Part shown: positions 7,025 to 56,413 of the stretch, piece by piece
Layout of the letters: every line of letters starts with the position of its first letter
How positions within the stretch are numbered: the first letter of the stretch is position 1
From: Valencia hispanica
Lineage: Eukaryota > Chordata > Actinopteri > Cyprinodontiformes > Valenciidae
Assembly (NCBI GenBank): GCA_963556495.2
Contig: OY747702.1
Location: forward strand, 11,782,693-11,846,692
Reading direction: 5' to 3'
DNA: 64,000 bases
The notes under the pieces: generated by a model
What the model saw: only the letters and a program-made list of their open reading frames with translations
What the model was told of the DNA's origin: nothing
The model's database searches: none
Translations under genes and position numbers: made by a program

Positions 7025-9753
7025 CAGTGGCGGAGCCAGAGGGCTAGTTGGGGTGGCAATTCAAAACCAAAAATAAGCATAATTTAATTTTTTTGTATAT
7101 TATTTGTGTAGTGTAGGCTATATAAATATACTATATACTAATAGTAATTTGTTTTTATTAACATGTTAAGATTTTATAAAGTTACTGTGCAGATTTTTTC
7201 AAGAATTACTTTTTGCTGTTCATTTATACACTCACTGAGTTAAATAAAAAAACATAATACAATATATATAACTTACAAAGGATTAAATTCATCACAATTA
7301 TGTAAGTATCTGGATATTTGTCGCGGGGCGAGGGCTTCAATAACCTCTCTCTTTTTTGACCATACATGTGTTTGCATCCCTGAATAGTAGATGTGACTGT
7401 AGAGATGTACTGAAGTAACTTTGTGTAGACATACAATTTATTAGCACTTAACATGTCTAGAAGTCTTTAAGCAATTTTCCTTGTGTTGTCAAATAGGCTA
7501 GACCTCAATATACTCACATTTTGTCGTAATGTATTACTTTAGTATTTGTAGTAACGGTGTACTCATGGTAAATAATAACATGCAAATTGTTCCAAATTTT
7601 TGTTTCTTCATGAGGTGTGTAACCAAGCTTTCCTTTGAATAGGGACAGCAGAATGAAGAGATAAAGCAACATCACCAACTTCTTTCTAAAGAAGCAAAAG
7701 TCAGGTGCTGATCAGGGCCAAACAGATTCCAGTCCCAGTGTCAGGTTTTAGCAGATATGGTGCAGAAGCAAATTGTTGCAGAAGTAAAAGAAAGCGAAGT
7801 ATTCAGTATATTGGCAGATGAAACAAAAGACTTGCAAAAAAAAGAACAAATGTCTTTAGTGCTGCGATACTATTTCAGGGGTGCTGTACACGAAAGCTTC
7901 TTGCACTTTCAGTCAGCAGAAAGCTTGGATGCAGAAGGTCTAACCAAAATGATAGTTGGATGTTTGGAGAGGCATGGGCTTGACTACAGAAACAATCTTG
8001 TTGGCCAAGGCTATGACTGTGCATCCGTAATGAGCGGGAAACGTTCTGGTGTGTCTGCACGGATTAAAAGCAATGCCAGGTTTGCATTTTATGTGCATTG
8101 TAGTGCTCATTGTCTGAACCTTGTTCTTGTTGATGCAGTGAAGTCAGTGCCTGAAGCTGAGGGGTTTTTTGCTCTTCTGCAGAGTATTTATAGGTTTGTG
8201 TCTGGCTCTGCTGTCCATATGAAGTGGCTTGCTGTTCAAAAAGAAATGTACCCAAATGAAAAGCCTAGGGAACTTCAGCGACTTTCAGATGTTAGGTGGG
8301 CTTGCCGGTACATGGCATGTAGGACTATGAGAGACAGGCTTCCAGCAGTTTTGAGGCTCTTGCAAGACATTTCACTTGAGAAGAATAGTGGAGATCGGAA
8401 AATAGAAGCAAAGGGTCTTTTGGCTCAAATTGACCTACAGTTTCTAGGACTTTTGGTTACTTTTTGTAAAGTGTTTGGGGATGTGAAAATCCTGTCTGAC
8501 ATGCTCCAATCCAGAAGTCTTGATCTGGTTAGAGCAATAGATCTAGTTGGCTCCCTTACAGACAAATTAAAAAGCTACAGAAGTGACTGTACATTTGGTG
8601 AATTATGGAAGGAGACTGAAGAACTTGTGCACCATTGCAACATTAGCACAGAAGCACAAAACAAGAGACGACCAAAGACCAATTTGAAATTTCTGAATTC
8701 ACTTGTAATGAGCACTGTTGGACAGAGGCACTCTGAGTTTGCAAACAACGAAGAGTTCAATAAAAGTATTTTCTATCAGGTACTTGATTGTCTTACAGCA
8801 GAAATAGATAGGCGTTTTTCCGAAAAGAACTGTGAGATAATGGAAGGAGTGCAGTCTCTTGACCCCAAAAGCCCATCATTCTTAAAAGAGGAACCCCTGC
8901 TTGCTTTGGGAAAAACATTCGAGTCAGATTTAGAAGACCTTAAGCATGAGCTTCATCAAACGAGACGGCTTCTTTTAAGAAGGGAGAAAAGTGGAGAGAG
9001 ACCAGCTTCTCTACTTGAGTTTGTGGCGTTTTTGGAACCTTACAAAGAGGTTTTCCATGAACTTTTTAGGCTTAGTAAAATTTCGGTTGTGATTCCAGTT
9101 AGTACTGCATCCTGCGAAAGAAGTTTCTCTGCCCTTAAATTAATAAAAACCCACCTCAGGACAACAATGGCAGATGATAGATTAAGTCACCTGGGCATAC
9201 TCAGTGTTGAGTCAAGGAGGGCATATTCCATTAATATGGAGGACTTTATAAAACATTTTGCGTCATCTCACCAGAACCGAAGAATTATGCTGTTCTGAAT
9301 GTTTGTTTTTGTGAACTTGGTGGTGCCATACCACTGGGTAGATGCAGGTCATACCTGGTACAACTTTTGAAGTTTATCATTAAAATCAGTGTTAAAGGGC
9401 TCTATGTTTTTTGTATTGTTGTTCTATTATTATTCTTGTGGTACACATTTGAATGTGTACAACTGACTTGTCCTGCCTTGTTTTGACAGGTCCAAGTTTA
9501 CCTCAGTTTTTGTTTACTACTGGACTTGATTAGTCCAAGGAGCACTTTGAATACTCGTTCTATTTTTGCTGTATACTTAATACATATATAATTGTGTACA
9601 TTTTGGAAAATAAACAACTTTAATTTAATCTGTATACATTTGTGGAAAATAATTTATTTTTAGTGTAATTGAACACTTTGTATATTGACCCCCCAAAATA
9701 ATACCTTGCCACCCCTTTGCCACCCCTGTTTTAAAAGTCTAGCTCCGCCACTG
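7025..9753 (+). mobile_element. hAT DNA transposon with perfect 8-bp target duplication
   Basis: The element begins CAGTGGCGGAGCCAGA and ends with the reverse complement of CAGTGGCGGAGCTAGA, so it has terminal inverted repeats of about 14-16 bp with one mismatch. Both sides are flanked by TTCCTTAT (7017-7024 and 9754-9761), the 8-bp duplication expected of hAT elements. It is 2729 bp long and contains one transposase frame (7757-9298). The left 700 bp are AT-rich and non-coding. A decayed coding stretch at about 7660-7750, ending in TAG just before the ATG, looks like the start of the original protein. Confidence 0.9.
7757..9298 (+). CDS. hAT-family transposase, N-terminally truncated
   Basis: 513 residues. 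Candidate catalytic acids are Asp21 (LADETKD), Asp87 (GYDCASVMSG) and Glu454 (SCERSFS); the last sits in the C-terminal hAT dimerisation region, with the RTTMADDRLSHLGIL segment after it. HCSAHCLNLVL near residue 113 and a W in RWACRY near 178 are further family marks. It cuts and pastes its own element in the nucleus. The N-terminal zinc finger (BED or TTF type) is absent; an upstream segment ending in TAG at 7747-7749 appears to be what remains of it. The best relatives I can name are the ZMYM1-like hAT proteins of vertebrates. The frame is otherwise open, so the catalytic part may be recent. Confidence 0.85.
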   Translation: MVQKQIVAEVKESEVFSILADETKDLQKKEQMSLVLRYYFRGAVHESFLHFQSAESLDAEGLTKMIVGCLERHGLDYRNNLVGQGYDCASVMSGKRSGVSARIKSNARFAFYVHCSAHCLNLVLVDAVKSVPEAEGFFALLQSIYRFVSGSAVHMKWLAVQKEMYPNEKPRELQRLSDVRWACRYMACRTMRDRLPAVLRLLQDISLEKNSGDRKIEAKGLLAQIDLQFLGLLVTFCKVFGDVKILSDMLQSRSLDLVRAIDLVGSLTDKLKSYRSDCTFGELWKETEELVHHCNISTEAQNKRRPKTNLKFLNSLVMSTVGQRHSEFANNEEFNKSIFYQVLDCLTAEIDRRFSEKNCEIMEGVQSLDPKSPSFLKEEPLLALGKTFESDLEDLKHELHQTRRLLLRREKSGERPASLLEFVAFLEPYKEVFHELFRLSKISVVIPVSTASCERSFSALKLIKTHLRTTMADDRLSHLGILSVESRRAYSINMEDFIKHFASSHQNRRIMLF

Positions 9754-10003
9754 TTCCTTATCCTCGTAAAATTATGACTTTAATCTCGAAGTCTGTGAAA
9801 AAATATTTTCCGTCATATTAACGTTAACGGTACTGTTTTGAATTGAATCTGTAAAGATAGTCTAAAATTTGAACTGTTGGTGTATTTGTACAATATGCAC
9901 AGTGAATATTTGTTGTAAATAGTTTACAAATCCAACTAATGATAATTTTTGAAGTTGTTGAATGTGACAAATGTACGTTACTTCGTCTTTTTTGACTACA
10001 AGG

Positions 10004-10057: not shown

Positions 10058-10063
10058 CTATTT
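10058..10063. repeat. Target-site duplication CTATTT, left
   Basis: CTATTT precedes the first element base at 10064 and is repeated directly after the last element base, at 20842-20847. It is a 6-bp duplication, taken as the insertion footprint of the 10.8-kb transposon. Confidence 0.8.
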
Positions 10064-10118
10064 TACGGAAGAGGATTAGGGCCACTGAAGAAAAAAAAAT
10101 ACAATTCTGTGAAAAAAG

Positions 10119-10905
10119 TCAGAATTCTGACTTTAATCTCAGAATTCTGACTTTAATCTCAGAATTCTGATATTAAAGTCAGAATTCTGAGATTAAAGTC
10201 AGAATTCTGAGATTAAAGTCAGAATTCTGACTTTAATCTCAGAATTCTGACTTTAATCTCAGAATTCTGACTTTATTCTCAGAATTCTGACTTTAATCTC
10301 AGAATTCTGACTTTAATCTCAGAATTCTGATATTAAAGTCAGAATTCTGAGATTAAAGTCAGAATTCTGACTTTAATCTCAGAATTCTGACTTTAATCTC
10401 AGAATTCTGACTTTAATCTCAGAATTCTGATATTAAAGTCAGAATTCTGAGATTAAAGTCAGAATTCTGACTTTAATCTCAGAATTCTGACTTTAATCTC
10501 AGAATTCTGACTTTAATCTCAGAATTCTGACTTTAATCTCAGAATTCTGATATTAAAGTCAGAATTCTGAGATTAAAGTCAGAATTCTGACTTTTTTCTC
10601 AGAATTCTGACTTTAATCTCAGAATTCTGACTTTATTCTCAGAATTCTGACTTTAATCTCAGAATTCTGACTTTAATCTCAGAATTCTGATATTAAAGTC
10701 AGAATTCTGAGATTAAAGTCAGAATTCTGACTTTAATCTCAGAATTCTGACTTTAATCTCAGAATTCTGACTTTAATCTCAGAATTCTGAGATTAAAGTC
10801 AGAATTCTGAGATTAAAGTCAGAATTCTGACTTTATTCTCAGAATTCTGACTTTAATCTCAGAATTCTGACTTTTTTCTCAGAATTCTGACTTTATTCTC
10901 AGAAA
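10119..10905. repeat. Left subterminal array of 20-bp palindrome units
   Basis: About 39 units. Each is a perfect 12-bp palindrome, TCAGAATTCTGA, followed by an 8-bp spacer. The spacer is CTTTAATC (forward) or its reverse complement GATTAAAG, with variants TATTAAAG, CTTTATTC and CTTTTTTC. The spacer orientation changes back and forth along the array, and TATTAAAG stands at most forward-to-reverse changes. The array lies between the terminal repeat and the first exon of the HECT gene. Likely roles are transposase binding sites, a promoter/enhancer, or both. Confidence 0.95.
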
Positions 10906-10977
10906 CCTAAGAAAAAAAAGGTTCTTTTACAAACAAGGAACTGATTTGGTGTAACTGCGGGAGAGCAAGGGAGGAAC

Positions 10978-11052
10978 ATGTCAGATATTGAGGATTTTCT
11001 TCGACACAGAGGAGTCTCAGAAGACCAAATATTGTCGTTGGAGGAGCAAAAG
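10978..11052 (+). CDS. HECT-ligase gene, exon 1 (SAM-like N-terminus)
   Basis: The ATG at 10978 opens 25 codons (MSDIEDFLRHRGVSEDQ then ILSLEEQK) ending AAG|GTGGGT, a canonical donor in phase 0. It joins the exon at 12880, also phase 0, across a 1.8-kb intron. The same exon, with the same coding sequence, is present in the right arm at 20387-20313. A short GC-richer leader (10940-10977) precedes the ATG; no TATA box is seen. The start choice is supported by the identity of both copies and by the absence of an upstream in-frame ATG in this leader. Confidence 0.75.
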
Positions 11053-12223
11053 GTGGGTAAAACAGATATTTTCTGGTTCGATTTTGTACATTACAGTAAA
11101 CAATGTGAAGCCATGTCTCGAATTAGGCTAGCTTGCATGCTATCATAAGCTAAACATAAGTGAATGTAATGTTAACTCAATGAGCGGATCGCCGACCCTT
11201 TTTATCGGCTGATTGCAATATTACAACCACATTGTTATGTCTTCACTGTTTATCTTTATACAATTCACATACATAACGCACATCAGCCAACCTTCAGTGC
11301 ATGATATAACGTTACCGTAGCGGTCTCTAGTTAAAGTGCCTGAGAGAAATTCCGTTGAAAATTGCCAGTGTGAGGTTATTGTGTATTGAGTTGTATTTTA
11401 TTGCACATCCTCCCTGAATAAATAAAGAGAATGAATGAACTTCAAAGACCTTATGATCGAGTGCGCGAGTACTGATTATTCATAGCCTTATTGTAAGTAG
11501 GGTTGCCAACCGTCCCTTAAAATACGTCATCGTCCCGTATTTGACTATTAAATGTGCCGCCCCGTTTTGAACTAATAAGGGACGCTATTTGTTCTGTATT
11601 TTCATAAATGTCTATCATGTGTGTCCGTCATAGACTTCGTACTGCTTTATTCTAACTACGTAGCTTATATAAACATAAAAATCACCCTACATTCAGCAAA
11701 ACTGTTCTAACGGCGGGATCAAACGGGACCGCAAATTGTTTGTTTGCGGCTCGCGAGTGATGCGCGCTCAGGATTGATCAGGTAGACACACACAAGATAC
11801 TGGCCATCCTTGGCTGGAAAAGATCTGTATAGATGAACACAAGGCAAACTGTAAACAATGCAGCCAGTGTTCTCAGTAGCACACAGAACACTTGCTGCAC
11901 AGCACAGCAGGCACACAACGAAGCAGAAAACACACGTCTGTGAGACTTCTGCGACATTTAGGCAAAAATATTCAGAATAGATTACATGTGTTGTGCTTTT
12001 TCAAAGATGTCTCGGCCATGTGCAATTTTATTTTTGTTGGATTAATTGTAGAGGATTCATCTCTATTAATTTAGAACAAGCCAATTTTGTGATAGATTAA
12101 AGATTTCCAATTTATTCATTTTGCTGACACAGAGAAGTGGATGTTTTCCTTATCCACCAGCATGCCAAAAACCACATCAAATATGACATTTTCTGCTAGT
12201 AACACTGATAAATTTGTGTATAT

Positions 12224-12770
12224 TGTCGGCTTCCTATCATAATATGCTCTGCAACTCACTTTCTACTCAGAGAGGTGGGGGCGCCGAACTCCAAAACCCC
12301 GGCGGGAACTGTTTCAAAATAAGACCCAGAACTGAGAGACAGAGAGTAAAAAACAACACACACAAACAACAGATATCTGTTTCACAGTGGATGCACCTGC
12401 AGATGGGAGCCAGAAAAGATCTGACTCGCTTCTCTACAAGGGTGTACCATTTTTATTACAGAAGAACAAAGAACATATCACATGACTCCTCTCTCCTCCT
12501 TCTACATCTTGACAGGTCATACATTTTCTCCAGGTCTCCTGACCGTACCAGGAACTAGAGTTATAACCGATCCTCCCTGCTTTCAGTTCATATCTTTACG
12601 CAAGAGTTTGTTTACTTAAAACCTTAACCCCATAAAGTACTGGTAAAGAGTCATGTTTTACTACCCTGAATAATATAAACAGGCCTATTACTTCTAAAGC
12701 TTAAAAAAGATATAATTAAAACATATGTACTGCATAATAAAAAATAGCCTCAAAAAAGTAGAATACAACA
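12224..12770. mobile_element. Solo-LTR-like insertion, 547 bp
   Basis: The right arm reads straight through GTGTATATACATCTC, while the left arm has 547 bp inserted within it, flanked by ATAT on both sides (12220-12223 and 12771-12774). The insert begins TGTCGG and ends ACAACA, the TG...CA form of a long terminal repeat, and has an AATAAA near its right end. No coding sequence is present. A solo LTR, left by recombination of a full retroelement, is the best reading. A different kind of short insertion is possible, because 4 bp of duplication in an AT dinucleotide run is weak on its own. Confidence 0.6.
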
Positions 12771-12879
12771 ATATACATCTCTTTTCAGTGAACAGTTTAT
12801 TCCAGACAATTTAATTTGAGTCTCAAGAACAAATATGTGCTTTACTGAATATCAATTTCTTTGTTTTGTCTTTTTGCAG

Positions 12880-14664
12880 ATCGACAGCAGTGTCATACTG
12901 CTGATGGATGATGCAACCCTGGCAAACTATATCCCCTCCTATGGTGACCGGATCGCCCTTTTCAACTTCTGCAAGAGTAAAAAACCTGTGTCAAAACGAA
13001 AGCAAGGGCTTTTAGATAAACTCCGTGAGAAAATGAAACTCAGAAAGGACAGTTCCACAGAAGATACATCAAACAGAGACACAAGTACAACCCATTCAAA
13101 AAAGCTAAAGTCAGTAAGAAATGTGGAAATAGGCTGGATTCACAATGATGGAAAGGTGACCAAACAGGTCAGGGCCAAGCAGGGTGGTGGCACCAGAAAA
13201 ATAAAACTGTCAACTGATGCTGGAATAGAAGATATACTTCAAGAAGGGAAGAAGCTTTTTTTCACTGATGGAACGTCTACAAAAGGATCAGTATTAGATT
13301 TTGATTTTGAGGTGTGGGACTTTAAACAGAACTGCCTTACAGATGATACTTGTCTGACTATAGGTAGCATGTATGAGGCTGAGAAGATGACAATGTTGCG
13401 ATTTTACATTGCAACCAAGCAAAAAGAAATGGATGAAAATGCCAGTGATGCGTCTGATGTGATCCTTGTTTCAGCAACCAGTGCCAGTGAAGCCGGTGTA
13501 GCAGAACGACAAACAGGAGATGTCATGAATGACACAGATCAGCCCCAACTTTCTCCAGAAACATCCATTGATTCTGGAATTATTACCTTTGGTGCGGTTT
13601 ACAGCTTGGAAGAAGACACAGAGGACACGCTGCTCTTTGAGGGTTTTGTTATTCCCGCCAGTCCAGCTCACCCAGATGATGTGATAACAATAACCATTCA
13701 TCATGGGAACACTTTCCAAGACATGATAACTGCCTTCTCTGATGCAGAGATTTTGTACAAAGCACTGAATGTGAAACGCATACTTCCAGACAACACGGAG
13801 GAAGCAGGCAGTGGATCTGGGGTACTAAGAGATGTTCTCAGCTGCTTCTGGCAGGAATTCTATGAGAGATGCACACTTGGTGCAACAGTCAAAGTGCCTT
13901 TCATTCGCCACGATTATTCCGCAGAAAAGTGGAAGGCAGTTGGCAGAGTCCTTGTAAGAGGTTACCTCGACTTTCAGTACTTGCCAAACAAACTGGCTCT
14001 ACCCTTCCTTGAGCAGGTGCTTTTTAATTGCATTTACAGTGATGTTAAAGCACATTTCCTGCAGTTTGTGAGCAACCAGGAACGTGAGGTTTTGAAACAA
14101 GCAATGAGTGATTTCTCACAAGTTGATCATGATGATCTTCTGGTAATTCTTGATGGCTACGGCTGTAGAAAGAGAATCACAGCTGAGACTCTTACAACGA
14201 TCCTGGATGAAATCGCACACAAAGAGGTTGTCCAAAAACCGATGTTTGTTATTAACTCCTGGAGGGAAATCACCATGCATGATCTCTCCATCACTCCAGA
14301 TCATCTCACAAAGTTGCTGTCTGACTTGCAACCATCCACAAAGAAGGTCTGCCAACTGCTTAAGTTTGGTGAGGATATAACTCCAAAACAAAAGGAAGTG
14401 GGGAATCATCTGAAAAGATTCGTCAGAGAGCTGGATGAAATCAAACTTCAGAAGTTTTTGAGGTTCTGCACAGGATCTGATCTCATTGTGACAGACAGTA
14501 TCAATGTGGAATTTAAACAAATGACAGAGTTCACTAGAAGACCAATAAGGCACACATGTGGGAAGATTCTGCACATTGCTGAAAGTTACGAAAACTTCCC
14601 AGATTTCCGTTCAGAATTCAACGCTGTTCTTGAAAGCAATGTCTGGGTAATGGACATTGTCTAG
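12880..14664 (+). CDS. HECT-type E3 ubiquitin ligase carried by the transposon, exon 2
   Basis: The exon starts after TTTTTGCAG and continues exon 1 (10978-11052) in frame to a TAG at 14662-14664, giving a 619-residue protein. Domains in order: SAM-like module (about 1-56, ending YIPSYGDRIALFNFC), a basic Ser/Lys linker (57-110), a region with EIGWIHNDGK and FDFEVWDF (110-205), an acidic Ser/Thr linker, then the HECT domain from about 289. The C-lobe ends with RHTCGKILHIAESY, where Cys585 is the expected thioester cysteine. It would accept ubiquitin from an E2 and pass it to a substrate. Relatives are the many 'G2/M-phase-specific E3 ligase-like' genes of fish. The first 31 residues of this exon lie inside the duplicated arm. 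The reading frame is intact. Confidence 0.85.
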   Translation: MDSSVILLMDDATLANYIPSYGDRIALFNFCKSKKPVSKRKQGLLDKLREKMKLRKDSSTEDTSNRDTSTTHSKKLKSVRNVEIGWIHNDGKVTKQVRAKQGGGTRKIKLSTDAGIEDILQEGKKLFFTDGTSTKGSVLDFDFEVWDFKQNCLTDDTCLTIGSMYEAEKMTMLRFYIATKQKEMDENASDASDVILVSATSASEAGVAERQTGDVMNDTDQPQLSPETSIDSGIITFGAVYSLEEDTEDTLLFEGFVIPASPAHPDDVITITIHHGNTFQDMITAFSDAEILYKALNVKRILPDNTEEAGSGSGVLRDVLSCFWQEFYERCTLGATVKVPFIRHDYSAEKWKAVGRVLVRGYLDFQYLPNKLALPFLEQVLFNCIYSDVKAHFLQFVSNQEREVLKQAMSDFSQVDHDDLLVILDGYGCRKRITAETLTTILDEIAHKEVVQKPMFVINSWREITMHDLSITPDHLTKLLSDLQPSTKKVCQLLKFGEDITPKQKEVGNHLKRFVRELDEIKLQKFLRFCTGSDLIVTDSINVEFKQMTEFTRRPIRHTCGKILHIAESYENFPDFRSEFNAVLESNVWVMDIV

Positions 14665-14787
14665 ATTACCACAACCCACACCATAACAACCTTCTACAAA
14701 TATTATGTTGCTTATGAAGTCATATTGAACAGTTGTAGAGGATGTTGAGGAATACATTCTATAGAATTTACTTATCTAGCTACACAA

Positions 14788-14793
14788 AATAAA
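14788..14793 (+). terminator. Polyadenylation signal candidate of the HECT gene
   Basis: AATAAA about 124 bp after the HECT stop codon. A second AATAAA lies near 15956. Either could end the transcript before the convergent integrase gene. Confidence 0.4.
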
Positions 14794-14799
14794 TGTTAA

Positions 14800-16104
14800 T
14801 GAATATGATTCTAATTTCCAAAATTGTGCAGCATCCATTTGAGAAGTTGTTCCAAATTACAACCGAATTGTCTAAAAATGTAGCAAATCCGGCATCCACG
14901 TAGTAACTTGAATATATTGGCAGATAAATAAGAGCCCTGAACAGTTGGCTCAATTCTTCCTGAATAACTATCACAAAAAAGGTCATAGTAAAACTGATAG
15001 TTGACATAATGGGAATTTAATGTTTGCTTTTGCGCAAAACACTTGTTTATTGGTTTTCAGTGGGGGTTTTTTTTATTCATGCAAATTGTTTTTGCATTCT
15101 TCATCGTTACAGAATTTTACATCATATCCTGTTGCAGAATTCTATGGGTACAGTTAAAATATAATTCCCCAGTTACTGATAGAAAGTCTTTACATGTGAG
15201 TGTTCTGACTTGTTTGTGGTAACTAATGAAACTACTGTGTTGCATTCTTACATGTTCTAATTCCACAATCATATATATCCTGTTAACCAGCATCTTTGCA
15301 CAACAAATTCCTGTTAATTTAGGCATACATAAACTTTCATTTGTATTTAATCTCGCATTGAAACATTATGTTCAGGTTCAGCACTCATAAATCTTTTAAT
15401 GCTTCGATTAGAATCATTTATAAAAGATAAATTAAATATTGTCAAGTATCTTGTTCATCTTAAATGGATAGTTTGTGTCACAGGTGTCACATTGTTAAAC
15501 AAATCTCCTGCAATGCATGTTACTTACTGAAAAAAATAGTACAGAAAATATGAGGGGGACATGAAACCAATTTTCTGACATATGTGAAGACTTGTTTAAA
15601 TGGTAGTGTAACATATGTATGCTTCTTTGTGGAGCAAAACTTGTGATCCCATCATGAAGGGAGCACAAAATAGTTTTTATGTCCCATCTGGCTATGATTT
15701 TTTTGTAACACCAGTTTTTTCTGTTACACTGTGCAAGAAGACCGCCATGTTCATTTGCCATTATCTTGGCCAACTGTTTCATTTATTCCAGTTTACTCTG
15801 AGAGCAGATTTATTATGGTACACACCAAAGGCTTTTATTGAGTTATTTGTATGCCCTATTTTCATTTTCAAGCATAAGACAATTGTGAAATGCTAAAGAT
15901 GCATTTAAACTGATGTTTTAATCAGTTGTTTAGATGTTTTAAACTTCAATTTTCAATAAAATGTTGATTCTTCTACCAAATGTGTATTCTGGTAATTTGT
16001 GAAAGTGTTGATTTTATGCTCGTCAGGCTACTTCAAGTTGGTGAAAAGATTACAGAAAAACAAACATGAACTTCAAATATAATTAATTTTTTGGTCAGAT
16101 GACA
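14800..16104. other. Non-coding spacer between the two convergent genes
   Basis: AT-rich sequence with no coding signal. It holds the likely 3' UTRs of the HECT gene (plus strand) and of the integrase gene (minus strand; a TTTATT at about 15782, read as AATAAA on the minus strand). Confidence 0.5.
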
Positions 16105-16428
16105 TTAAATAATTTGAAGTATTTCCTCCCGTAACTTGATGTACAGATCTGCTGCAGTAAAAGGATCTGCTGGAGCCTCCCACCCATTCTCCTCCATCAG
16201 TAGACAGCACAGTTCAAACACAGTTTGATCACATGGAAACTCTCCCTTGGGAGTACACTCCTCTGCACACAAAATAACTTCCTCCATAGAAGTAGGTTTT
16301 TGTCTATCCTCAGCATCATAGAGCTCTGGGAATGAGTACATCACAACTGGCCGGCCTGACACAGCACCACCACTTCTTGGTCTGATCCTGTGTGCATTCC
16401 ATGTGTTGACAACTTTGTCAAGTTCCTC
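16105..16428 (-). CDS. Integrase-like transposase, last exon
   Basis: On the minus strand, TTCCTGTGCAG is followed by GAGGAACTTGAC: a canonical acceptor at 16429-16430 that begins the exon in phase 0. It encodes 107 residues (EELDKVVNTWNAHRIRP ... EEILQII) and ends at TGA/TAA near 16105. NTWNxHRIRP and SGRP are typical of the C-terminal tail that follows the catalytic core of integrase-type transposases, and the C-terminal part is rich in Glu/Leu. It pairs with the donor CAG|GTAAA at 18042/18041, giving an intron of 1.6 kb. Confidence 0.75.
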   Translation of the reverse strand, partial: EELDKVVNTWNAHRIRPRSGGAVSGRPVVMYSFPELYDAEDRQKPTSMEEVILCAEECTPKGEFPCDQTVFELCCLLMEENGWEAPADPFTAADLYIKLREEILQII

Positions 16429-18041
16429 CTGCACAGGAAGAAGCATTGTAAATACTGATTACTAACAGTATTTAAGCAGTTTATAGTCAAGGCAGCCACC
16501 TTAACGTGTCCGCCACCACCTTAACTAAAGTTGAAGACATGAAAGACCTGTAAGTTAATTAAAATCTTTCTACATCATGCACACCTAGCATAAAAAGTCT
16601 GAGTGACAGAAAAGGGAGGCAATATAGCCTTTAAAAAATCAGTGTGTCATATTTTTATCACACAACAGAAATTATAATAAGGTTTGTTGAAGATAATTAA
16701 TTGAGACGGCTAACCAAAAGAAATTGCACTCGTTTAATTTTTGTTTTGTTTCAGAAAGCAAGTTAGAATCTTCCTAAACATTTAAATGTATAACATCAAT
16801 GAATAACTGGGCTTTTGGTTGCAGAATACCTAGCCAACATAAAATGCACCATGGGTAATTTTGGGGTCACTTTTTGTGTTTTGGAAATAGGAATTATTCG
16901 GGTCCAGAATTATGCATGGCACTGGTCAAAAAAGAGAAGGGCTTTGATTTTTAGAACAGTGCTATAAAATCCATCAAAAATTAACTAACATTATTTTTTC
17001 AAATCAGAACTGAAAATGAAGTCAATAAACAAACAGAATTGCCTCCTATTTTTTTTTTTTGTCTAGTCTTCATTTCATTTTGAATCTCCTTAACTAGTTA
17101 TAACTGTAAGGTAAAGTCACTTTATCAGACATACAGATGTACAGTGAAATTCAATTGAAAGTCATGGAATCAAACTCAATGCACACTAAATTTTAACATT
17201 GTAATAGTTGATACTTAGTCAACTGACCTAGTAGTGAAAAACACGAAGAGGTAGAGATTTAAGATGATGAATCAAACCGTTTAGATATGATTTTGTTTTA
17301 TTTACTTGGTTTAGCGGACCTAGGGCTACACAATTAATAATATTTTGATCATAATTTTGGCCTCCCCTTAATCAAAGTAGCAGGTCTGATGACCATTATT
17401 GTTGTTTATAAATCATTGTCTGTCCATAGTAAACTCAGTGATGTCATTTAATATAGTGTTATTTAAACAATTCATCAGCAATGCTCTGTGTATATTCTCA
17501 AAATGATTATATGCACAACATGCCTCCTCAGTACTATTTACACTCATGCGCACAAGAGTCAGCAGAGTGATTCAGTGGGACAGTAGGTGCACTAAGGGGT
17601 CAAATAAAGTGAAAATATAATTATGATAAATAATTGGGATCACAATATTGATTAAAATAATTGTGATTGGGGTGGTGTGTGGCGCAACGGGTTACGCGGC
17701 CATCCCATATTCAGAGGTTACAGCTCCTTAAAGGCCTTGCTCAGGGGCCCACAGTGGTTCACCTCATTTGCTAGCCCTGGGACTTGAACCCAGGTTCTCC
17801 ACACCCAATACGTTGAATGAATGATCAAGCTTAGAAACATATTTGTAAAAATTTAAAGAATCTTAACTTTTTTTCTAAAAGGAAAACAGTCTCCTGACAT
17901 GATGCAAAATAAAACTTCTACTAATATGATTTGTACATTTTAGAACAAATACACTCAATGAAAAACAAGCAGTACTTAATGTATTACTGTGACTTAATAC
18001 AGTTATGATTGACTCATTTCAGTGATTATAAGGATTTTTAC
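16429..18041 (-). other. Intron of the integrase gene
   Basis: Flanked by CAG|GTAAA at its 5' side and TGCAG| at its 3' side on the minus strand. It is AT-rich and contains a short SINE-like repeat near 17668-17815 and nothing else I recognise. Confidence 0.65.
17668..17815. repeat. SINE-like repeat
   Basis: A GC-richer segment with TGGCGCAACGGG, which resembles a tRNA A box, and near the other end GGGACTTGAACCC, whose reverse complement resembles a tRNA B box. The two boxes do not share an orientation, so a composite or degenerate tRNA-derived repeat is possible. It has no coding capacity. Confidence 0.35.
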
Positions 18042-18904
18042 CTGAACAAGATTTAGAAAACAGAACTGAATGAGATTTTGTCCAAAAAATCTCCTGTAAA
18101 GTGACCATCATCTTGGAATGTTTGGAACATGTTCATCCAGAACTGCGCACTCTGTTTGCGAAGGGTACTCCACCACCCCTCAATCCGCTGGATGGCTGTG
18201 CTTCTTCCATAAAGGAAACTTCTCTCACCTGCAAAACTGTCTGGGTGGTTCCTCCGTAAAAAGATCTGCATGTCTCTTACACAGACATTTTCAGTGCCCC
18301 TGTCTGCTCGAATCCTCTCAGGGCATCCACCTATGTTAGAGACTGTTCTGATGAAATACCCAGCAACAAGTTTGGGGTCATTGTTTGTGGTGAAAGCCTC
18401 CATCCATAACACATATCGACTGTAGCCATCTATGCAGCCATGAATGGCAATGCCATAAGGTTTTAATTTATCATAGCCGTCTATGTGCCAGAGTGCATTT
18501 GGCCCACTGCAGATGTACTGACGTCTCCTCAAGCGTCTTGCTCTTCTTAATTCCACACCTTGCGGGTCCACCAGCTTAATGATGCATCTTATGGTTTCTT
18601 GTGATACAACAAATCCACATTGAACTGCACGAAGATGTAGCCAGCGATAACCCTGCATCTGTCCATTTGTCATGATCTCATTGTGGACAAAAGCCAGAAC
18701 TTCATCCAAATCTGATTGATTTTTCCTTCGAAAAAGTCCAAGTCTTTTACATATTCTCTTTAAAGTCCGGATGCTTAATACTATCTGATTGTTTTGTGCT
18801 AAAATAGCAAGTATTTCTTTGTTACTAAAAGAAAGTCTGAAGTAAAGTTTGATTAAGTAATCCAACTCTGGCACAGGAGGCATTGTTGATGTTGAATGGC
18901 AAAA
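18042..18904 (-). CDS. DDE integrase-like transposase, catalytic exon (frameshifted near its end)
   Basis: From the ATG at 18883, an N-terminal helix-turn-helix-like stretch (about 1-60) is followed by an rve-type core. The catalytic triad is visible: Asp135 in WHIDGYD, Asp194 in RADRGTEN, Glu235 in RIEGWWSTLRK, a D-x58-D-x40-E spacing, with CIDGYSRYV between the first two. The frame runs past this core but shifts by one base in an A-run near 18074-18085; in the other frame it reaches the donor CAG|GTAAA. The exon may start upstream at 18904, where TTT follows a TTAG acceptor in phase 0. It would cut and join the element ends. Because of the shift, this copy is probably inactive unless the missing base is an assembly error. 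Confidence 0.8.
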
Positions 18905-18922
18905 CTAATGTCAACGATTACA

Positions 18923-19036
18923 TTAATTTGAAAGGACAACTGTGCAGAAGTTGAAAAGGGCGATCCGGTCACCATAGGAGGGGATATAGTTTGCCAGGGT
19001 TGCATCATCCATCAGCAGTATGACACTGCTGTCGAT
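18923..19036 (-). CDS. Integrase gene, SAM-like exon 2 in the right arm
   Basis: After TTTTTGCAG on the minus strand, 31 codons repeat the left-arm exon 2 (IDSSVILLMDDATL ... FNFC), then diverge to TVVLSN and TAA at 18925-18923. The arms part just after TTCTGCA. Joined to exon 1 (20387-20313) it gives a stand-alone 62-residue SAM-like protein. In the same frame, a 36-bp GT...AG stretch (18940-18905) separates it from the integrase frame, so splicing it out would fuse the SAM module to the transposase; 36 bp is very short for a vertebrate intron. Confidence 0.55.
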   Translation of the reverse strand: MDSSVILLMDDATLANYIPSYGDRIALFNFCTVVLSN

Positions 19037-20312
19037 CTGCAAAAAGACAAAACAAAGAAATTGATATTCAGTAAAGCACATATTTGTTCTTGAGACTCAA
19101 ATTAAATTGTCTGGAATAAACTGTTCACTGAAAAGAGATGTATATACACAAATTTATCAGTGTTACTACCAGAAAATGTCATATTTGATGTGGTTTTTGG
19201 CATGCTGGTGGATAAGGAAAACATCCACTTCTCTGTGTCAGCAAAATGAATAAATTGGAAATCTTTAATCTATCACAAAATTGGCTTGTTCTAAATTAAT
19301 AGATATGAATCCTCTACAATTAATCCAACAAAAATAAACTTGCACATGGCCGAGACATCTTTGAAAAACCACAACACATGTAATCTATTCTGAATATTTT
19401 TGCCTAAATGTCGCAGAAGTCTCACAGACATGTGTTTTCTGCTTCGTTGTGTGCCTGCTGTGCTGTGCAGCAAGTGTTCTGTGTGCTACTGAGAACACTG
19501 GCTGCATTGTTTACAGTTTGCCTTGTGTTCATCTATACAGATCTTTTCCAGCCAAGGATGGCCAGTATCTTGTGTGTGTCTACCTGATCAATCCTGAGCG
19601 CGCATCACTCGAGAGCCGCAAACAAACAATTTGCGGTCCCGTTTGATCCCGCCGTTAGAACAGTTTTGCTGAATGTAGGGTGATTTTTATGTTTATATAA
19701 GCTACGTAGTTAGAATAAAGCAGTACGAAGTCTATGACGGACACACATGATAGACATTTATGAAAATACAGAACAAATAGCGTCCCTTATTAGTTCAAAA
19801 CGGGGCGGCACATTTAATAGTCAAATACGGGACGATGACGTATTTTAAGGGACGGTTGGCAACCCTACTTACAATAAGGCTATGAATAATCAGTACTCGC
19901 GCACTCGATCATAAGGTCTTTGAAGTTCATTCATTCTCTTTATTTATTCAGGGAGGATGTGCAATAAAATACAACTCAATACACAATAACCTCACACTGG
20001 CAATTTTCAACGGAATTTCTCTCAGGCACTTTAACTAGAGACCGCTACGGTAACGTTATATCATGCACTGAAGGTTGGCTGATGTGCGTTATGTATGTGA
20101 ATTGTATAAAGATAAACAGTGAAGACATAACAATGTGGTTGTAATATTGCAATCAGCCGATAAAAAGGGTCGGCGATCCGCTCATTGAGTTAACATTACA
20201 TTCACTTATGTTTAGCTTATGATAGCATGCAAGCTAGCCTAATTCGAGACATGGCTTCACATTGTTTACTGTAATGTACAAAATCGAACCAGAAAATATC
20301 TGTTTTACCCAC

Positions 20313-20387
20313 CTTTTGCTCCTCCAACGACAATATTTGGTCTTCTGAGACTCCTCTGTGTCGAAGAAAATCCTCAATATCTGACAT
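20313..20387 (-). CDS. Integrase gene, SAM-like exon 1 in the right arm
   Basis: This is the inverted copy of the left-arm exon 1, with the same 25 residues and the same AAG|GTGGGT donor. It lies directly inside the right subterminal array, so the integrase gene presumably has the same promoter as the HECT gene. Intron 1 (19037-20312) matches the left-arm intron apart from the 547-bp insertion there. Confidence 0.7.
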
Positions 20388-20458
20388 GTTCCTCCCTTGC
20401 TCTCCCGCAGTTACACCAAATCAGTTCCTTGTTTGTAAAAGAACCTTTTTTTTCTTAG

Positions 20459-20805
20459 GTTTCTGAGAATAAAGTCAGAATTCTGAGATTAAAGTCAGAA
20501 TTCTGAGAATAAAGTCAGAATTCTGAGATTAAAGTCAGAATTCTGAGAATAAAGTCAGAATTCTGAGATTAAAGTCAGAATTCTGAGAATAAAGTCAGAA
20601 TTCTGAGATTAAAGTCAGAATTCTGAGAATAAAGTCAGAATTCTGAGATTAAAGTCAGAATTCTGAGAATAAAGTCAGAATTCTGAGATTAAAGTCAGAA
20701 TTCTGAGAATAAAGTCAGAATTCTGAGATTAAAGTCAGAATTCTGAGAATAAAGTCAGAATTCTGAGATTAAAGTCAGAATTCTGACTTTATTCTCAGAA
20801 TTCTA
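20459..20805. repeat. Right subterminal array of 20-bp palindrome units
   Basis: About 17 units of TCAGAATTCTGA plus an 8-bp spacer. On the plus strand the spacers alternate strictly between GAATAAAG and GATTAAAG, which makes a 40-bp period; only the last unit, next to the terminus, has the opposite orientation (CTTTATTC). The array is less than half the length of the left one and is far more regular. Confidence 0.95.
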
Positions 20806-20841
20806 TTTTTTTTTCTTCAGTGGCCCTAATCCTCTTCCGTA

Positions 20842-20847
20842 CTATTT
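20842..20847. repeat. Target-site duplication CTATTT, right
   Basis: Matches the 6 bp at 10058-10063 across the 10.8-kb transposon. Confidence 0.8.
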
Positions 20848-26760: not shown

Positions 26761-27329
26761 AGCCGGGATTATCTAGAGCTATCACTGTAGTTATGCTGCT
26801 GTGTGACCTCCATCGTCACTCCTCCCTAGATACATCTGGTGGGGACCAGCTTGCTCTTGCTCTGTCCGATCCTTGACACGCTGGATCTTGCTAGTTTGAC
26901 GGCGGAGGTGGAGAGGGTTCACCAGGTGGCCAGGGGGAGAAGTCATTGGCTGCTCCTCCAGTAGCCTGTCCACCAGTACATCTCATCCTCGAGATCCTCA
27001 GGGACCGGCGGCGTGCGACCTCCGCCAAGGTGGCCCTCTCCTCCAACGGCCCGCGCAACGGCCTTCCAAGCTGAACCACCCTGCACCAGCCCTTCCCTGG
27101 CTGCGCTCTTTGAGCAACACAGTCCGCTCCCCAGAGTCCGCTCTAGTGGGTTGCGCCCCACAGTTTTGTCCTTCAGCCGCAGTTCCAAAGGTCCTTCCTG
27201 AGGTCGCTCCTGAGTCCACTCCACGACGCCTTCCCATGGCCGCACCTCGCCACCTTCCAATGCCCACACCTCACCTCCGGGCCCCCGTGCCCGCACCTAA
27301 TCTAAGCCTCCTGGTTCCAATGCCTCGTC

Positions 27330-28099
27330 TGGGAAAATGGGGGAAAAGTCTACTCCAGGTTCACTGTGAGATATACAAAGAGAGACTGAATAGATATCAG
27401 CTAACTATAAAAGATGCTAGGGAATCTTTCTTTTCTGAAATCATCAACAGAAACATTAATAATGCACGGACCCTATTTGCAACAGTGAAAAGACTAACTA
27501 ATCCTTTAGTGACAGTAGCCCCTGAACTAAACTCTACCAGGGCCTGCAATGAATTTGCCAGCTTTTTCACTGAAAAGATTCTAACAATTAGACGGTCAAT
27601 CTGTACCTCAATATCGAACCCACAACCAGTGCCATCCCCAAACAACAACAATGTAGAGAAAATGTCTGAATTCCACAAATTAAACCAGAACAGCCTTGAA
27701 AAAATCAATATCCAATTAAGCTCCTCCTCCTGCTGTCTTGATATCCTACCCACAGCTTTTCTAAAGAAAGTTCTTCCTGTTATTGGGTCTGATCTTGTTC
27801 AAATAGTGAACTCATCCCTGCTATCAGGTGTCTTCCCTCAGACTTTAAAACAAGCAGTTATTAAACCACTGCTAAAGAAGAAAAATCTGGACAACACGTT
27901 AATGCAGAACTACAGGCCGATCTCTACTCTTCCATTCATCAGTAACATTATTGAAAAAGCTGTGTTTCAGCAGCTGAATAGCTTCATAACAATGACAAAC
28001 CGTTTTGATGTTTTTCAGTCTGGTTTCCGTGCTCACCACAGCACCGAGACTGCCCTCGTCAAAGTATTCAATGACATCCGCATAAATACAGACAGTTGA
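27330..28099 (+). pseudogene. L2 reverse transcriptase, N-terminal part
   Basis: After about 60 residues of proline-rich upstream sequence that may belong to another repeat, the frame shows the linker (ARTLFATVKRLTNP, EFASFFTEKI), the LLKKKNLDNTLMQNYRPISTLP block and VFQSGFRAHHSTETAL. It stops at 28097 inside the block that should continue to the catalytic region. The following 28100-28244 has no frame and contains the missing segment with stops. Confidence 0.75.
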
Positions 28100-28244
28100 T
28101 CATGATATTTTATTGGAACGACTAGAGAGCTGGGTCGGACTCTCTGGTACACTACTTGGCTAGTTCGAATCTTACCTAAAGAACAGGGACTTCTATGTCT
28201 CAATAGGAAACTTTTCATCAGAACGAACAGAAATCACATGTGGG

Positions 28245-28721
28245 GTGCCGCAGGGCTCCATCCTGGGGCCCCTCTTATTTAATATCTACATGCTCCCACT
28301 AGGCAAGATTATAGCAACCAATAACATTAGCTACCATAACTACGCGGATGACACTCAGCTCTACATTACAATGTCACCAGGTGACTCTGAACCCATTCAA
28401 ACTGTAAATCAATGCATTGACCAAATAAATGGATGGATTTGCCATAACTTTCTCCAGCTGAATAGAAACAAAACTGAAGTGATTATTTTTGGACCCAAGG
28501 AGGAACGATCAAGAGTCAGCACACAGCTTAAATTAATACAGCTAGAAACTACTGATCAGGCTCGAAACCTAGGTGTAGTAATGGACTCAGACCTGAACCT
28601 CCAAGGTCACATAAAGGCAATAACAAGGTCAGCGTTCTATCACCTGAAGAACATCTCTAGGATTAAACGACTGATGTTGCAACACGATCTAGAAAAAGTC
28701 ATCCATGCGTTTATCTTTTGA
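28245..28721 (+). pseudogene. L2 reverse transcriptase, catalytic part
   Basis: The frame opens at the [14 protein letters not shown] block and includes the catalytic box YADDTQLY (about 28350), then [13 protein letters not shown] and LGVVMDSDL. It ends at a stop near 28720. An upstream stop and this one show the copy is dead. Confidence 0.8.
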
Positions 28722-39359: not shown

Positions 39360-40435
39360 GGGAGGCTCAAAATCAAAAGTACCCGTCAGTATCTGGTGTG
39401 GCCACCAGCTGCTTGAAGTACTGCAGTGCATCTCCTCCTCATGGACTGGACCAGATTTGTCAGTTCTTGTTGTGAGATGTTACCCCACTCTTCCACCAAG
39501 GCACTTGCAAGATCCTGGACATTTCTGGGGGGAATGGCCCTAGCCCTCACCCTGCGATCCAACAGGTCCCAGACGTGCTCAATGGGATTGAGATCCGGGC
39601 TCTTCGCTGGCCATGACAGAACACTGACATTGCTGTTGTGCAGAAACTCACGCACAGAATGAGCAGTATGGCTGGTGGCATTGTCCTGCTGGAGGATCAT
39701 GTCCGGATGAGCATGCATAAAGGGTACCACATGAGGGAGGAGGATGTCTTCCCTGTACCGCAAGGTGGGTTGGTGCCCATAGGCTGGTGATGTCTGGTAA
39801 GGACCTGCCTTACAACAGGCCTACAAGCCCTCAGTCCAGCCTCTCTCAGCCTATTTCAGACAGTCTGAGCACTGATGGAGGGATTGTGTGTTCCTGGTGT
39901 GACTTGGGCAGTTGTTGTGGCCATCCTGTACCTGTCACGCAGGTGTGATATTCGGATGTACTGATCCTGTGCAGGTGTTGTTACACGTGGTCTTCCACTG
40001 CGAGGATGATCAGCTGTCCTTCCTGTCTCCCTGTAGCGCTGTCTTAGGCGTCTCACAGTGCGGACATGGCAATTTATTGCCCTAGCCACACCAGCAGTCC
40101 TCATGCCTCACTGCAGCATGCCTAATGCATGTTCATGCAGATGAGCAGGGACCCTGGGCATCTTTCTTTGGATGTTTTTTAGTAGACAAGTCTCTTTAGT
40201 GTCCTGCGTTTTATAACTGTGACCTTAAATGCCTACTTTCTGTAAGCTGTTAAGGTCTTAACGACCATTCCACAGGTGCATGTTAATTAATTGATTATGG
40301 TTAATTGAACATGCATGGAAAACATCGTTTAAACCCTTTACAATGAAGATCGGTAAAGTTATTTGGATTTTTACAACATTATTGTTGAAATACACAGTCC
40401 TGAAAAAGGGACGGTTCTTTTTTTGCTGAGTTTAT
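39360..40435 (-). mobile_element. Tc1-type transposon, internally deleted
   Basis: The minus strand encodes the N-terminal part (40104-39856; GVARAINCHVRTVRRLRQRY and DHPRSGRPRVTTPAQ), then a segment ending in RACRPVVRQVLTRHHQ, and the C-terminal part (39763-39386). The right edge carries the Tc1 end with TGCTGAGTTTATA near 40422-40434. The protein jumps from the DNA-binding domain straight to RYREDILLPHVV, so the middle of the catalytic domain, including the first aspartate, has been deleted. The left terminal repeat is not clear. Confidence 0.8.
39386..39763 (-). pseudogene. Tc1 transposase, C-terminal part
   Basis: 125 residues that start at RYREDILLPHVVPFM and keep the second catalytic aspartate in QQDNATSHTA and the third acidic residue in SPDLNPIEHVWD. 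The C-terminus, RRRCTAVLQAAGGHTRY, is that of the fish Tc1 family. It cannot function because the first aspartate region is missing from this copy. Confidence 0.8.
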
Positions 40436-41879: not shown

Positions 41880-43035
41880 GCATACTAACTCCTCTCGATG
41901 TGGAGGAGCAGCGGCTCTACTCTGAGCCCCATCCGGATGACTGAGCTTCTCACCCTATCTCTAAGGGAGAGCCCAGACACTCTACAAAGGAAACTCATTT
42001 CAGCCGCTCGTATCTGTGATCTCGTTCTTTCGGTCACAACCCAGAGTTCGTGACCATAGATGAGGGTAGGAACGTAAATCGACCGGTTAATCAAGAGCTT
42101 TGCCTTTCGGCTCAGCTCTCTCTTCACCACGACAGACCGGTACAGTGCCTGCATAACTGCAGATGCCCCACCAATCCATCTATCGATCTCCCGCTCCATT
42201 TTTCCCTCATTCGTGAACAAGACCCCCAGATACTTAAACTCATCCACTTAGGGAAGGACCTCATCCCCGACCCGGAGAAGGCACCCCACCCTTTTCCGGC
42301 TCAAGACCATGGCCTCGGATTTGGAGGTGCTGATTCTCATCCCAGCCGCTTCACACTCAGCTGCGAACCGCCCCAGCGAAAGCTGTAGATTACATTCCGA
42401 TGAAGCCAACAGGACCACGTCATCTGCAAAAAGCAGAGACCCAATCCTGAGGCCACCGAAACGTATCCCCTCAACACCTTGGCTGCGCCTAGAAATCCCG
42501 TCCATAAAAGTTATGAACAGGATCGGTGACAAAGGGCAACCTTGGCGGAGTCCAACTCTCACCGGAAACAAGCCCGACTTACTGCCGGCAATGCGAACCA
42601 AACTCTGGCACCGGCCGTACAGGGACCTAACAGCCCTTATTCAAGGGGCCCGGTACCCCATACTCCCGGAGTACCCCCCACAGGGCCCCCCGAGGGACAC
42701 GGTCGAACGCCTTCTCCAAGTCCACAAAACACATGTAGACCGATTGGGCGAACTCCCACGCACCCTCCAGGACCCTGCTGAGGGTGTAGAGCTGGTCCAC
42801 GGCCAGGACGAAAACCGGATTGTTCCTCCTGGATCCGAGGTTCGACTATCGGTCGAACCCTCCTCTCCAGAACCCCTGAATAGACCTTACCAGGGAGGCT
42901 CAGAAGTGTGATCCCCCTGTAGTTGGAACACACTCTGTGGTCCCCCTTTTTAAACAGGGGGACCACCACCCTGGTCGTAATATAACTATAACTTCTGAAG
43001 TAATAGTTATAGTTAAGAGAGTCTAAGGGTTCCAT
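41880..43035 (-). mobile_element. Non-LTR retrotransposon with reverse transcriptase (clade not assigned)
   Basis: Minus-strand reverse transcriptase in broken frames: VVVPLFKKGDHRVCSNYRGITLL (43035 frame), GLRQGCPLSPILFITFMDGI and LFADDVVLLAS (42601 frame, catalytic FADD near 42420), then FKYLGVLFTNEGKMEREIDRWIG, LSRKAKLLI and YVPTLIYGHELWV (42247 frame). The frames overlap as pieces of one protein with at least two shifts. A short (ATGG)n run lies at 43034-43052, next to its 5' edge. The product is a fish LINE family that I cannot place in a clade with certainty. Confidence 0.75.
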
Positions 43036-54879: not shown

Positions 54880-56413
54880 CAGTGGCTGCAAAATTATCCG
54901 CCCCCCTTGAACTTTTCCACATTTTGTCACATTACAGCCACAAACATGAATCAATTTTATTGGAATTCCATGTGAAAGACCAATACAAAGTGGTGTACAC
55001 GTGAGAAGTGGAACGAAAATCATACATGATTCCAAACATTTTTTACAAATAAATAACTGAAAAGTGGGGTGTGCGTAATTATTCAGCCCCCTGAGTCAAT
55101 ACTTTGTAGAACCACCTTTTGCTGCAATTACAGCTGCCAGTCTTTTAGGGTATGTCTCTACCAGCTTTGCACATCTACAGACTGAAATTCTTGCCCATTC
55201 TTCTTTGCAAAACAGTCAAGCTCAGTCAGATTAGATGGACAGCATTTGTGAACAGCAGTTTTCAGATCTTGGCCATTCTAACACATGGATATGTTTTGTT
55301 TTAAACCATTCCATTGTTGCCCTGGCTTTATGTTTAGGGTCGTTGTCCTGCTGGAAGGTGAACCTCCGCCCCAGTCTCAAGTCTTTTGCAGACTCCAAGA
55401 GGTTTTCTTCAAAGATTGCCCTGTATTTGGCTCCATCCATCTTCCCATCAACTCTGACCAGCTTCCCTGTCCCTCCTGAAGAGAAGCACCCCCAGAGCAT
55501 GATGCTGCCACCACCATATTTGACAGTGGGGATGGTGTGTTCAGAGTGATGTGCAGTATTAGTTTTCCGCCACACATAACGTTTTGCATTTTCTCATCTG
55601 ACCAGAGCACCTTCTTCCACATGTTTGCTGTGTCCCCCACATGGCTTGTGGCAAACTGCAAAAGGGACTTCTTATGGTTTTCCTTTGACTTTCTTCTTGC
55701 CACTCTTCCATAAAGGTCAACTTTGTGCAGTGCACCACTAATAGTTGTCCTGTGGACAGATTCCCCCACCTGAGCTGTAGATCTCTGCAGCTCGTCCAGA
55801 GTCACCATGGGCCTCTTGGCTGCATTTCTGATCAGCGCTCTCCTTGTTCGGCCTGTGAGTTTAGGTGGACGGCCTTGTCTTGGTAGGTTTACAGTTGTGC
55901 CATACTCCTTCCATTTCTGAATGATCGCTTGAACAGCGCTCCGTGGGATGTTCAAGGCTTGGGAAATCTTTTTGTAGCCTAAGCCTGCTTTAAATTTCTC
56001 AATAACTTTATCCCTGACCTGTCTGGTGTGTTCTTTGGACTTCATGGTGTTGTTGCTCCCAACATTCTCTTAGACAACCTCTGAGGCCGTCACAGGGCAG
56101 CTGTATTTGTACTGACATTAGATTACACACAGGTGCACTCTATTTAGTCATTAGCACTCATCAGGCAATGTCTATGGGCAACTGACTGCACTCAGACCAA
56201 AGGGGGCTGAATAATTACACACACCCCACTTTTCAGTTATTGATTTGTAAAAAATGTTTGGAATCATGTATGATTTTTGTTCCACTTCTCACGTGTACAC
56301 CACTTTGTTTTGGTCTTTCACGTGGAATTCAATAAAATTGATTCATGTTTGTGGCTGTAATGTGATCAAATGTGGAAAAGTTCAAGGGGGCCGAATACTT
56401 TTGCAAGCCACTG
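54880..56413 (-). mobile_element. Tc1-type transposon with complete ends
   Basis: The ends are long inverted repeats of roughly 200 bp, beginning CAGTGGCTGCAAAATTATCC on the left and, reverse-complemented, CAGTGGCTTGCAAAAGTATT on the right. A TA dinucleotide flanks both sides (54878-54879 and 56414-56415), as expected of Tc1. Length 1534 bp. The transposase is on the minus strand and is broken (next entry). It sits inside the TAGGGCTG-ended nest. Confidence 0.9.
55230..56045 (-). pseudogene. Tc1 transposase with frameshift and deleted C-terminus
   Basis: The ATG at 56045 opens the DNA-binding domain (two helix-turn-helix blocks: EHTRQVRDKVIEKFKAGLGY, then GRPPKLTGRTRRALIRNA), then WSDEKMQNV with the first catalytic aspartate. 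A frame shift near 55560 leads to the continuation WRKTNTAHH ... VDGKMDG ... QQDNDPKHKAR (second aspartate). After VLEWPR the frame is lost: the usual SPDLNPIENLW segment with the third acidic residue is missing, though a still-recognisable C-terminal segment resumes in another frame. It is an inactive copy that keeps its ends. Confidence 0.85.

Follow-up and report, generated by a model that had tools for sequence, protein, structure and literature searches.

In a 64,000-nucleotide stretch of the Valencia hispanica genome (contig OY747702.1; hereafter the window), we found one inserted unit of 10.8 kb, at positions 10064-20841, which contains a gene for a predicted HECT ubiquitin ligase and a gene for a DDE transposase in convergent orientation. 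The two genes sit between long inverted arms, and the same exon 1, intron and exon 2 start are present in both arms. Overall, an element of a known kind appears to be combined with a type of helper gene that, as far as our searches reached, is apparently unreported, and its shared-end arrangement is unusual. We lean slightly towards the view that this is one IS3EU-like transposon whose arms drive both genes jointly, with the ligase acting as an accessory against a limiting host protein.

The boundaries of the element are sharply defined. The 20-mer TACGGAAGAGGATTAGGGCC forms both termini, at 10064-10083 on the forward strand and at 20822-20841 on the reverse strand, with 0 mismatches between them, and 100 shuffles of the sequence gave a mean of 0.00 matches when up to 3 mismatches were allowed. 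A 6-bp target site duplication lies directly outside these termini. The first-pass annotation had read the region as a single unit with matching inverted ends and a CTATTT duplication, and this description agrees with the exact 20-mers, the flanking duplication, the two enclosed genes and the presence of HECT exon 1 in both arms. The extent it gave to the inverted ends was far too short, the terminal match being only the outermost part of a repeat that runs through 10064-12973 and 18943-20841. The features of the ends are as follows.

10058 to 10063: target site duplication CTATTT, left copy, directly outside the left end
20842 to 20847: target site duplication CTATTT, right copy, directly outside the right end
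10064 to 12973, forward strand: left inverted arm, with the terminal 20-mer, a 20-bp repeat array, HECT exon 1, intron 1, the start of exon 2 and a 547-bp insert
18943 to 20841, reverse strand: right inverted arm, with the parts of the left arm minus the 547-bp insert and with a shorter array
10119 to 10904: left subterminal array, 39.3 copies of a 20-bp unit (TCAGAATTCTGACTTTAATC)
20461 to 20804: right subterminal array, 17.2 copies of a 20-bp unit of the left-array kind
12224 to 12770: 547-bp TGT..ACA insert lying within the left arm's intron 1 between two ATAT copies; its empty site, with one ATAT, is in the right arm

The inverted ends are about 1.9 kb long and near-identical outside the repeat arrays, and their likeness ends at 12973/18943. 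Comparing 19146-20460 with 10905-12219, we found differences at 6 of 1315 positions; further inward, 18944-19141 and 12775-12972 are identical across 198 bp. A long and near-identical inverted repeat could in principle be produced by a folded-back read during assembly. Such an artefact is highly improbable here, given the 6 differences, the insert with its own 4-bp duplication in one arm, and the unequal sizes of the arrays (786 bp on the left vs 344 bp on the right). The right arm reads straight across the insertion site with a single ATAT, and the insert looks like a solo long terminal repeat that arrived once the arms were already copies. The shared arms are most simply explained by a copy of the ligase end having been placed at the transposase end, or by both ends having been kept identical; on the evidence of one copy, either end may have come first. 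Scans for tRNAs and against Rfam gave no matches. A near match to the 20-bp array unit also occurs at 9770-9787, about 280 bp outside the left end.

The ligase gene begins within the left arm and consists of two exons.

10978 to 11052, forward strand: HECT exon 1, 25 codons, MSDIEDFLRHRGVSEDQILSLEEQK; donor AAG/GTGGGT; matches the start of the relatives P0002, P0003 and P0007
12880 to 14664, forward strand: HECT exon 2 with the stop; the catalytic Cys585 is residue 560 of this exon

Joined at the inferred splice junction, the exons give a product of 619 amino acids, and its alignment to relatives such as P0002 covers 100% of the length. The cysteine is residue 585, in the RHTC motif, just as the first-pass annotation had placed it in a spliced HECT gene. 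In an alignment of 109 rows, C occupies this position in 83 of the 85 lettered rows. The predicted structure model contains the two-lobed HECT fold and resembles the HECT E3s UBR5 and HUWE1 (PDB 8p83, 6xz1), at 13% identity over the match. These two proteins share the two-lobed fold and the C-terminal catalytic cysteine with the window ligase, whereas their N-terminal halves are unlike its own. We therefore predict, from fold and cysteine, that the product is a HECT ubiquitin ligase, in which Cys585 would take up and pass on ubiquitin. A PDB sequence search with the HECT profile returned 9 rows, none under E 0.16, with HUWE1, E6AP, AREL1 and also FliG among them. The N-terminal domain, which comes from the shared part of the arms, belongs to the ligase, being present in 67 of 80 ligase relatives and, among the 120 transposase relatives listed, in 0. 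A resemblance to SAM domains was considered for it and rejected, with no SAM match in Pfam and a best PDB profile match of E 0.077, and the domain is left unnamed.

The transposase gene lies on the other strand and is preceded there by the second copy of the ligase's start.

18042 to 18883, reverse strand: transposase exon 1; ATG at 18883; donor GT at 18041; the DDE residues correspond to D142/D201/E242 of P0001
18068 to 18080, reverse strand: stretch in which the assembled transposase loses frame relative to its relatives
16105 to 16428, reverse strand: transposase exon 2, the C-terminal part; acceptor GTGCAG/GAG
20313 to 20387, reverse strand: second copy of HECT exon 1, upstream of the transposase on the same strand
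18923 to 19036, reverse strand: second copy of the HECT exon 2 start, running into a stop; joined with the exon 1 copy, it gives a predicted leader frame of 62 codons

The open frame at 18053-18904 on the reverse strand matched PF24764 at E 1.9e-27, and PF00665 at E 3e-6 with 27.9 bits, under the cut-off of 32.6. D142, D201 and E242, which the first-pass annotation had correctly picked out as D135/D194/E235 counting from the methionine, are invariant in all 39 aligned rows. No CxxC was seen by eye upstream of the first D in the open-frame translation. What had been missed are the second exon and the loss of frame. In the relatives P0085 (391 aa) and P0086 (384 aa), the protein runs from GDFLDK through LIQFC and then enters a second exon, whose counterpart in the window is 16105-16428. 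In the window, the transposase frame diverges from this course around 18068-18080 and meets its stop at 18053-18055, ahead of the donor at 18041. The Sarotherodon model P0098 also deviates from the relatives in this region, and the loss of frame in the window may be a mutation or an assembly error. As assembled, the copy would yield a protein without the C-terminal part, and would thus need transposase from another copy. The structure model of the transposase is weak (mean pLDDT 65.3, pTM 0.32), and neither it nor the Foldseek search made with it, in which IstA and retroviral integrases ranked on top with 2 rows at E up to 0.001, serves as main evidence. A PDB sequence search with the transposase profile gave no matches. 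Judged by eye, splicing of the exon 1 copy to an acceptor just before 18904 seems possible and would produce an in-frame fusion with the transposase. Within the transposase intron, 17660-17800 has the look, by eye, of a tRNA-derived short interspersed element, for which ARAGORN and Rfam gave no match.

IS3EU elements are described as having TA..TA termini and usually a 6-bp target site duplication (PMC10045372). Those of rust fungi are reported with TAYGG..CCRTA ends and with carried TET/JBP and alpha-kinase genes; in the TET+ members the transposase and the alpha-kinase are oppositely oriented, and the cargo enzymes of such fungal transposons are thought to undo silencing (PMC12730594). The window element starts with TACGG at 10064 and finishes with CCGTA at 20841, which fits TAYGG..CCRTA. 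Its single copy has the 6-bp CTATTT on both sides, and its transposase is, as in IS3EU elements, of the integrase-type DDE class without an upstream HHCC zinc motif. From the ends, the duplication length and the transposase domain, the element likely belongs to the IS3EU kind, as had been proposed at first sight. It resembles the TET+ fungal members also in carrying an extra gene, but theirs are the TET/JBP dioxygenase and the alpha-kinase, and the window element's is HECT. The term 'HECT' occurs 0 times in the main texts of PMC10045372 and PMC12730594. Our literature searches, in which the listed papers were judged by their titles and opening abstract lines, found no report of a HECT ligase in a DNA transposon, and Repbase or Dfam entries may already list such a frame.

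Two other systems offer partial parallels. MuDR of maize has two convergent genes, one of them a transposase, and its inverted ends hold the promoters (PMC3440606). Likewise, the transposase and the second gene of the window element are convergent, each starting within an inverted end. On the other hand, the MuDR transposase is of another family, the MuDR ends measure about 215 bp vs about 1.9 kb, and the arms of the window element share even the first coding exon. The 4 Pfam rows of the window transposase, with PF24764 and the weak PF00665, include no Mutator family. Ginger1, which carries OTU or Ulp1 protease domains and whose authors propose an involvement of the ubiquitin pathway in transposition (PMC2836005), similarly combines an integrase-like transposase with an enzyme of the ubiquitin/SUMO pathway. 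Its domains, however, remove ubiquitin or SUMO and lie within the transposase C-terminus, whereas the window element has a separate gene predicted to attach ubiquitin.

We then considered whether the ligase and the transposase travel together. DNA is known from the one copy in the window, and other copies are represented by protein lists; the transposase list holds the best 120 of 1297 hits, and each row is a 90% cluster represented by one contig. In two fish annotations the two genes lie no more than 3 gene numbers apart, namely Sarotherodon galilaeus (ligase/transposase 024914/024917, 014761/014762 and 003485/003486) and Mugilogobius chulae (022200/022201). Three of the four listed Sarotherodon ligases are thereby paired, and 002508 is without a neighbour among the best 120 of 1297 transposases. 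Contigs of 9,989 and 1,281,550 bp occur in both lists, as do chromosome-sized contigs of Oryzias latipes, Melanotaenia and Xenopus tropicalis; of these, the 9,989-bp contig alone implies closeness, the others being too long. Pattern scans of viral and prokaryotic contig collections for other copies gave pattern matches, with no relative confirmed.

The two proteins also diverge in parallel. The alignments comprised 48 of the 80 HECT relatives and 38 of the 120 listed transposase relatives, each with the window. Across 9 pairs, the ligase and transposase identity matrices correlated with r 0.75, a value reached by 2 of 20,000 permutations (Mantel test); for 3 of the 9 pairs the link is only that long contigs are equal in size (Oryzias latipes, Melanotaenia and the 1,281,550-bp contig), and for one it is the shared 9,989-bp contig. 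The matrices also contained five unlinked pairs, each from a single species (Xenopus, Aquarana, Fundulus, Hippocampus and Apostichopus), which were kept outside the Mantel test; two of them served as outgroups in the paired trees. In both of these trees, the window falls together with the three pairs from Sarotherodon (support 99/99 and 100/99). Melanotaenia and the 9,989-bp contig come together (100/99 and 89/95) and belong to a larger group that includes Mugilogobius and Oryzias (94/95 and 82/95). The 1,281,550-bp pair falls into this larger group in the transposase tree only, being unresolved in the ligase tree, and forks with full support number 3 of 8 and 1 of 8. Where resolved, the ligase and transposase trees agree. 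Together with the close locus numbers in two species and the shared short contig, this supports, from outside the window, the earlier reading of the two genes as one unit.

Co-divergence is also what would be expected of contacting partners. The ligase might act on the element's own transposase, marking the transposase or the strand-transfer complex for removal; this would adjust dosage or free the ends so that repair can follow. The start of both genes from copies of the same DNA would suit such a matched pair of enzyme and regulator. Nevertheless, co-inheritance on one element gives equal co-divergence without contact, and hits to the transposase family exceed those to the ligase (1297 vs 80 and 103, from searches that were limited differently). 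We regard this alternative as unlikely, though it deserves to be kept in mind.

The history of the ligase itself argues for a mobile gene. We built a tree of 35 sequences, comprising 34 relatives with named hosts and the window, and compared it with the placement of the host fishes. The loach Paramisgurnus grouped with the mudminnow Dallia (100/98), and the cichlid Archocentrus with the cyprinid Anabarilius (100/98), while a second loach, Misgurnus, fell in a different large group. The elephantfish Paramormyrops was placed with the window among spiny-rayed fishes at moderate support (88/92). Within fishes, the inferred ligase tree thus contradicts fish phylogeny at strongly supported forks. 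This pattern is compatible with mobile copies, with several old lineages and with horizontal transfer and is unlike a vertically inherited host gene, which speaks against the possibility, considered from the outset, that the HECT gene is a conserved host gene. Beyond fishes, ligase relatives occur in frogs, a hemichordate, a sea cucumber, oyster and beetles.

Several individual entries among these relatives deserve mention. The ligases of Fundulus heteroclitus (P0035) and Menidia menidia (P0038) are identical at 670 of 674 positions, making them a candidate case of recent horizontal transfer or of contamination. One relative (P0206) comes from a 10,764-bp contig assigned to a Candidatus Thiodiazotropha genome, and is likely animal host DNA in a symbiont assembly. 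Extra domains on P0220 (Neoarius, PF14291) and P0228 (Tribolium, PF13873) point to other element fusions or merged gene models. The source name of the Dissostichus ligase-family protein P0079, 'Urease subunit alpha', looks wrong.

An unrelated HECT gene of the host or of another element could have ended up between the ends by chance. In favour of this, DNA is known from one copy only, and the lists of several species do not place the two genes together. However, the HECT first exon lies inside both inverted arms, which means that the gene is built into the ends of the element; there are close ligase/transposase pairs elsewhere, and the HECT tree is not a species tree. Chance inclusion is accordingly hard to credit.

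How the element might work can be outlined as follows. Both genes begin within the arms, as in MuDR, so each arm probably contains a promoter. Since each of the two genes starts within a copy of one shared sequence, the ligase and the transposase would likely be switched on and expressed together. The transposase would cleave the element at its ends and join these across a 6-bp stagger. An E2 would hand ubiquitin to Cys585 of the ligase, which would then transfer it to a target; the N-terminal half of the ligase would select that target. The least certain step is the nature of the target. It may be a host protein of silencing or repair and not the transposase; we favour a host protein because 1297 transposase hits vs 80 and 103 ligase hits, from searches with different limits, fit a helper and not a part of the cutting machine.

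The first-pass annotation had called the ligase cargo or an accessory, and conservation, we infer, favours the accessory. Transposons are known to capture genes, and a captured passenger with no role in movement would accommodate both the unproven role of the ligase and the larger number of transposase relatives in the searches. On the other hand, a passenger would hardly be expected to keep its catalytic cysteine in 83 of 85 lettered rows, nor to be linked to, and to co-diverge with, the transposase in fish. The relatives from frog to beetle would mean an old partnership if they were also linked, linkage there not having been seen. We therefore think a passenger decidedly improbable.

Several observations weigh against an accessory ligase within one joint unit. 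The window HECT scored 22.4 bits against PF00632, below the cut-off of 23.9, which is a score threshold and not a physical feature; 29 of the 80 HECT relatives carry this domain. The stop of the leader frame at 18923 is followed 39 nt downstream by the transposase ATG at 18883, and the leader frame could reduce translation of the transposase. For other copies, the evidence that the two genes share one pair of ends comes from protein lists. Gene numbers of ligase and transposase are far apart in Merluccius polli, Xenopus tropicalis, Anabarilius grahami and Apostichopus japonicus. Eight further hosts also appear on the two lists, with contigs of unequal size only: Paramisgurnus, Fundulus, Girardinichthys, Hippocampus zosterae, Synchiropus, Gymnodraco, Oreochromis niloticus and Aquarana. 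With the best 120 of 1297 transposases and one contig per cluster, such misses are weak evidence. The excess of transposase hits, with the searches limited differently, suggests that the ligase may not be needed for movement. Finally, three frogs grouped together and four invertebrates apart in the ligase tree, both separate from the fishes; the deepest splits thus follow the hosts, and inheritance at that depth is partly vertical.

By its sequence, the window is a transposon-rich stretch. Just left of the element, 7712-9298 holds an open frame of a hAT-type transposase (PF14291, PF05699). Reverse transcriptase (PF00078; one of four below the cut-off) and Tc1-type transposase fragments (PF13358; PF01498/PF25787) occur at 1017-2381, 26900-28099, 28164-28721, 42248-42640, 39386-39820 and 55377-56069.

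The accessory reading can be extended to a whole lineage. In this broader form, elements of a lineage spread among fishes and frogs bring along a HECT ligase of their own, relatives of which occur in hemichordates, sea cucumbers, oysters and beetles; the arms share promoter and first exon; the transposase message also encodes a free N-terminal domain of the ligase; and ligase, loose domain, transposase and host are mutually regulated. Taken as a whole, we offer this chain as speculative and rather unlikely. Transposon-borne enzymes for the removal of ubiquitin or SUMO are already known (PMC2836005). A transposon with its own ubiquitin-attaching enzyme, if true, would allow a direct test, through the protein that the ligase tags, of the connection suggested between transposition and the ubiquitin pathway, and the ligase would likely help the element against the host. 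A shared first exon, if true, would mean that one promoter sequence serves two genes by its presence at both ends. Likewise, many 'uncharacterized' HECT genes in fish annotations would, if this holds, be transposon genes and not host genes.

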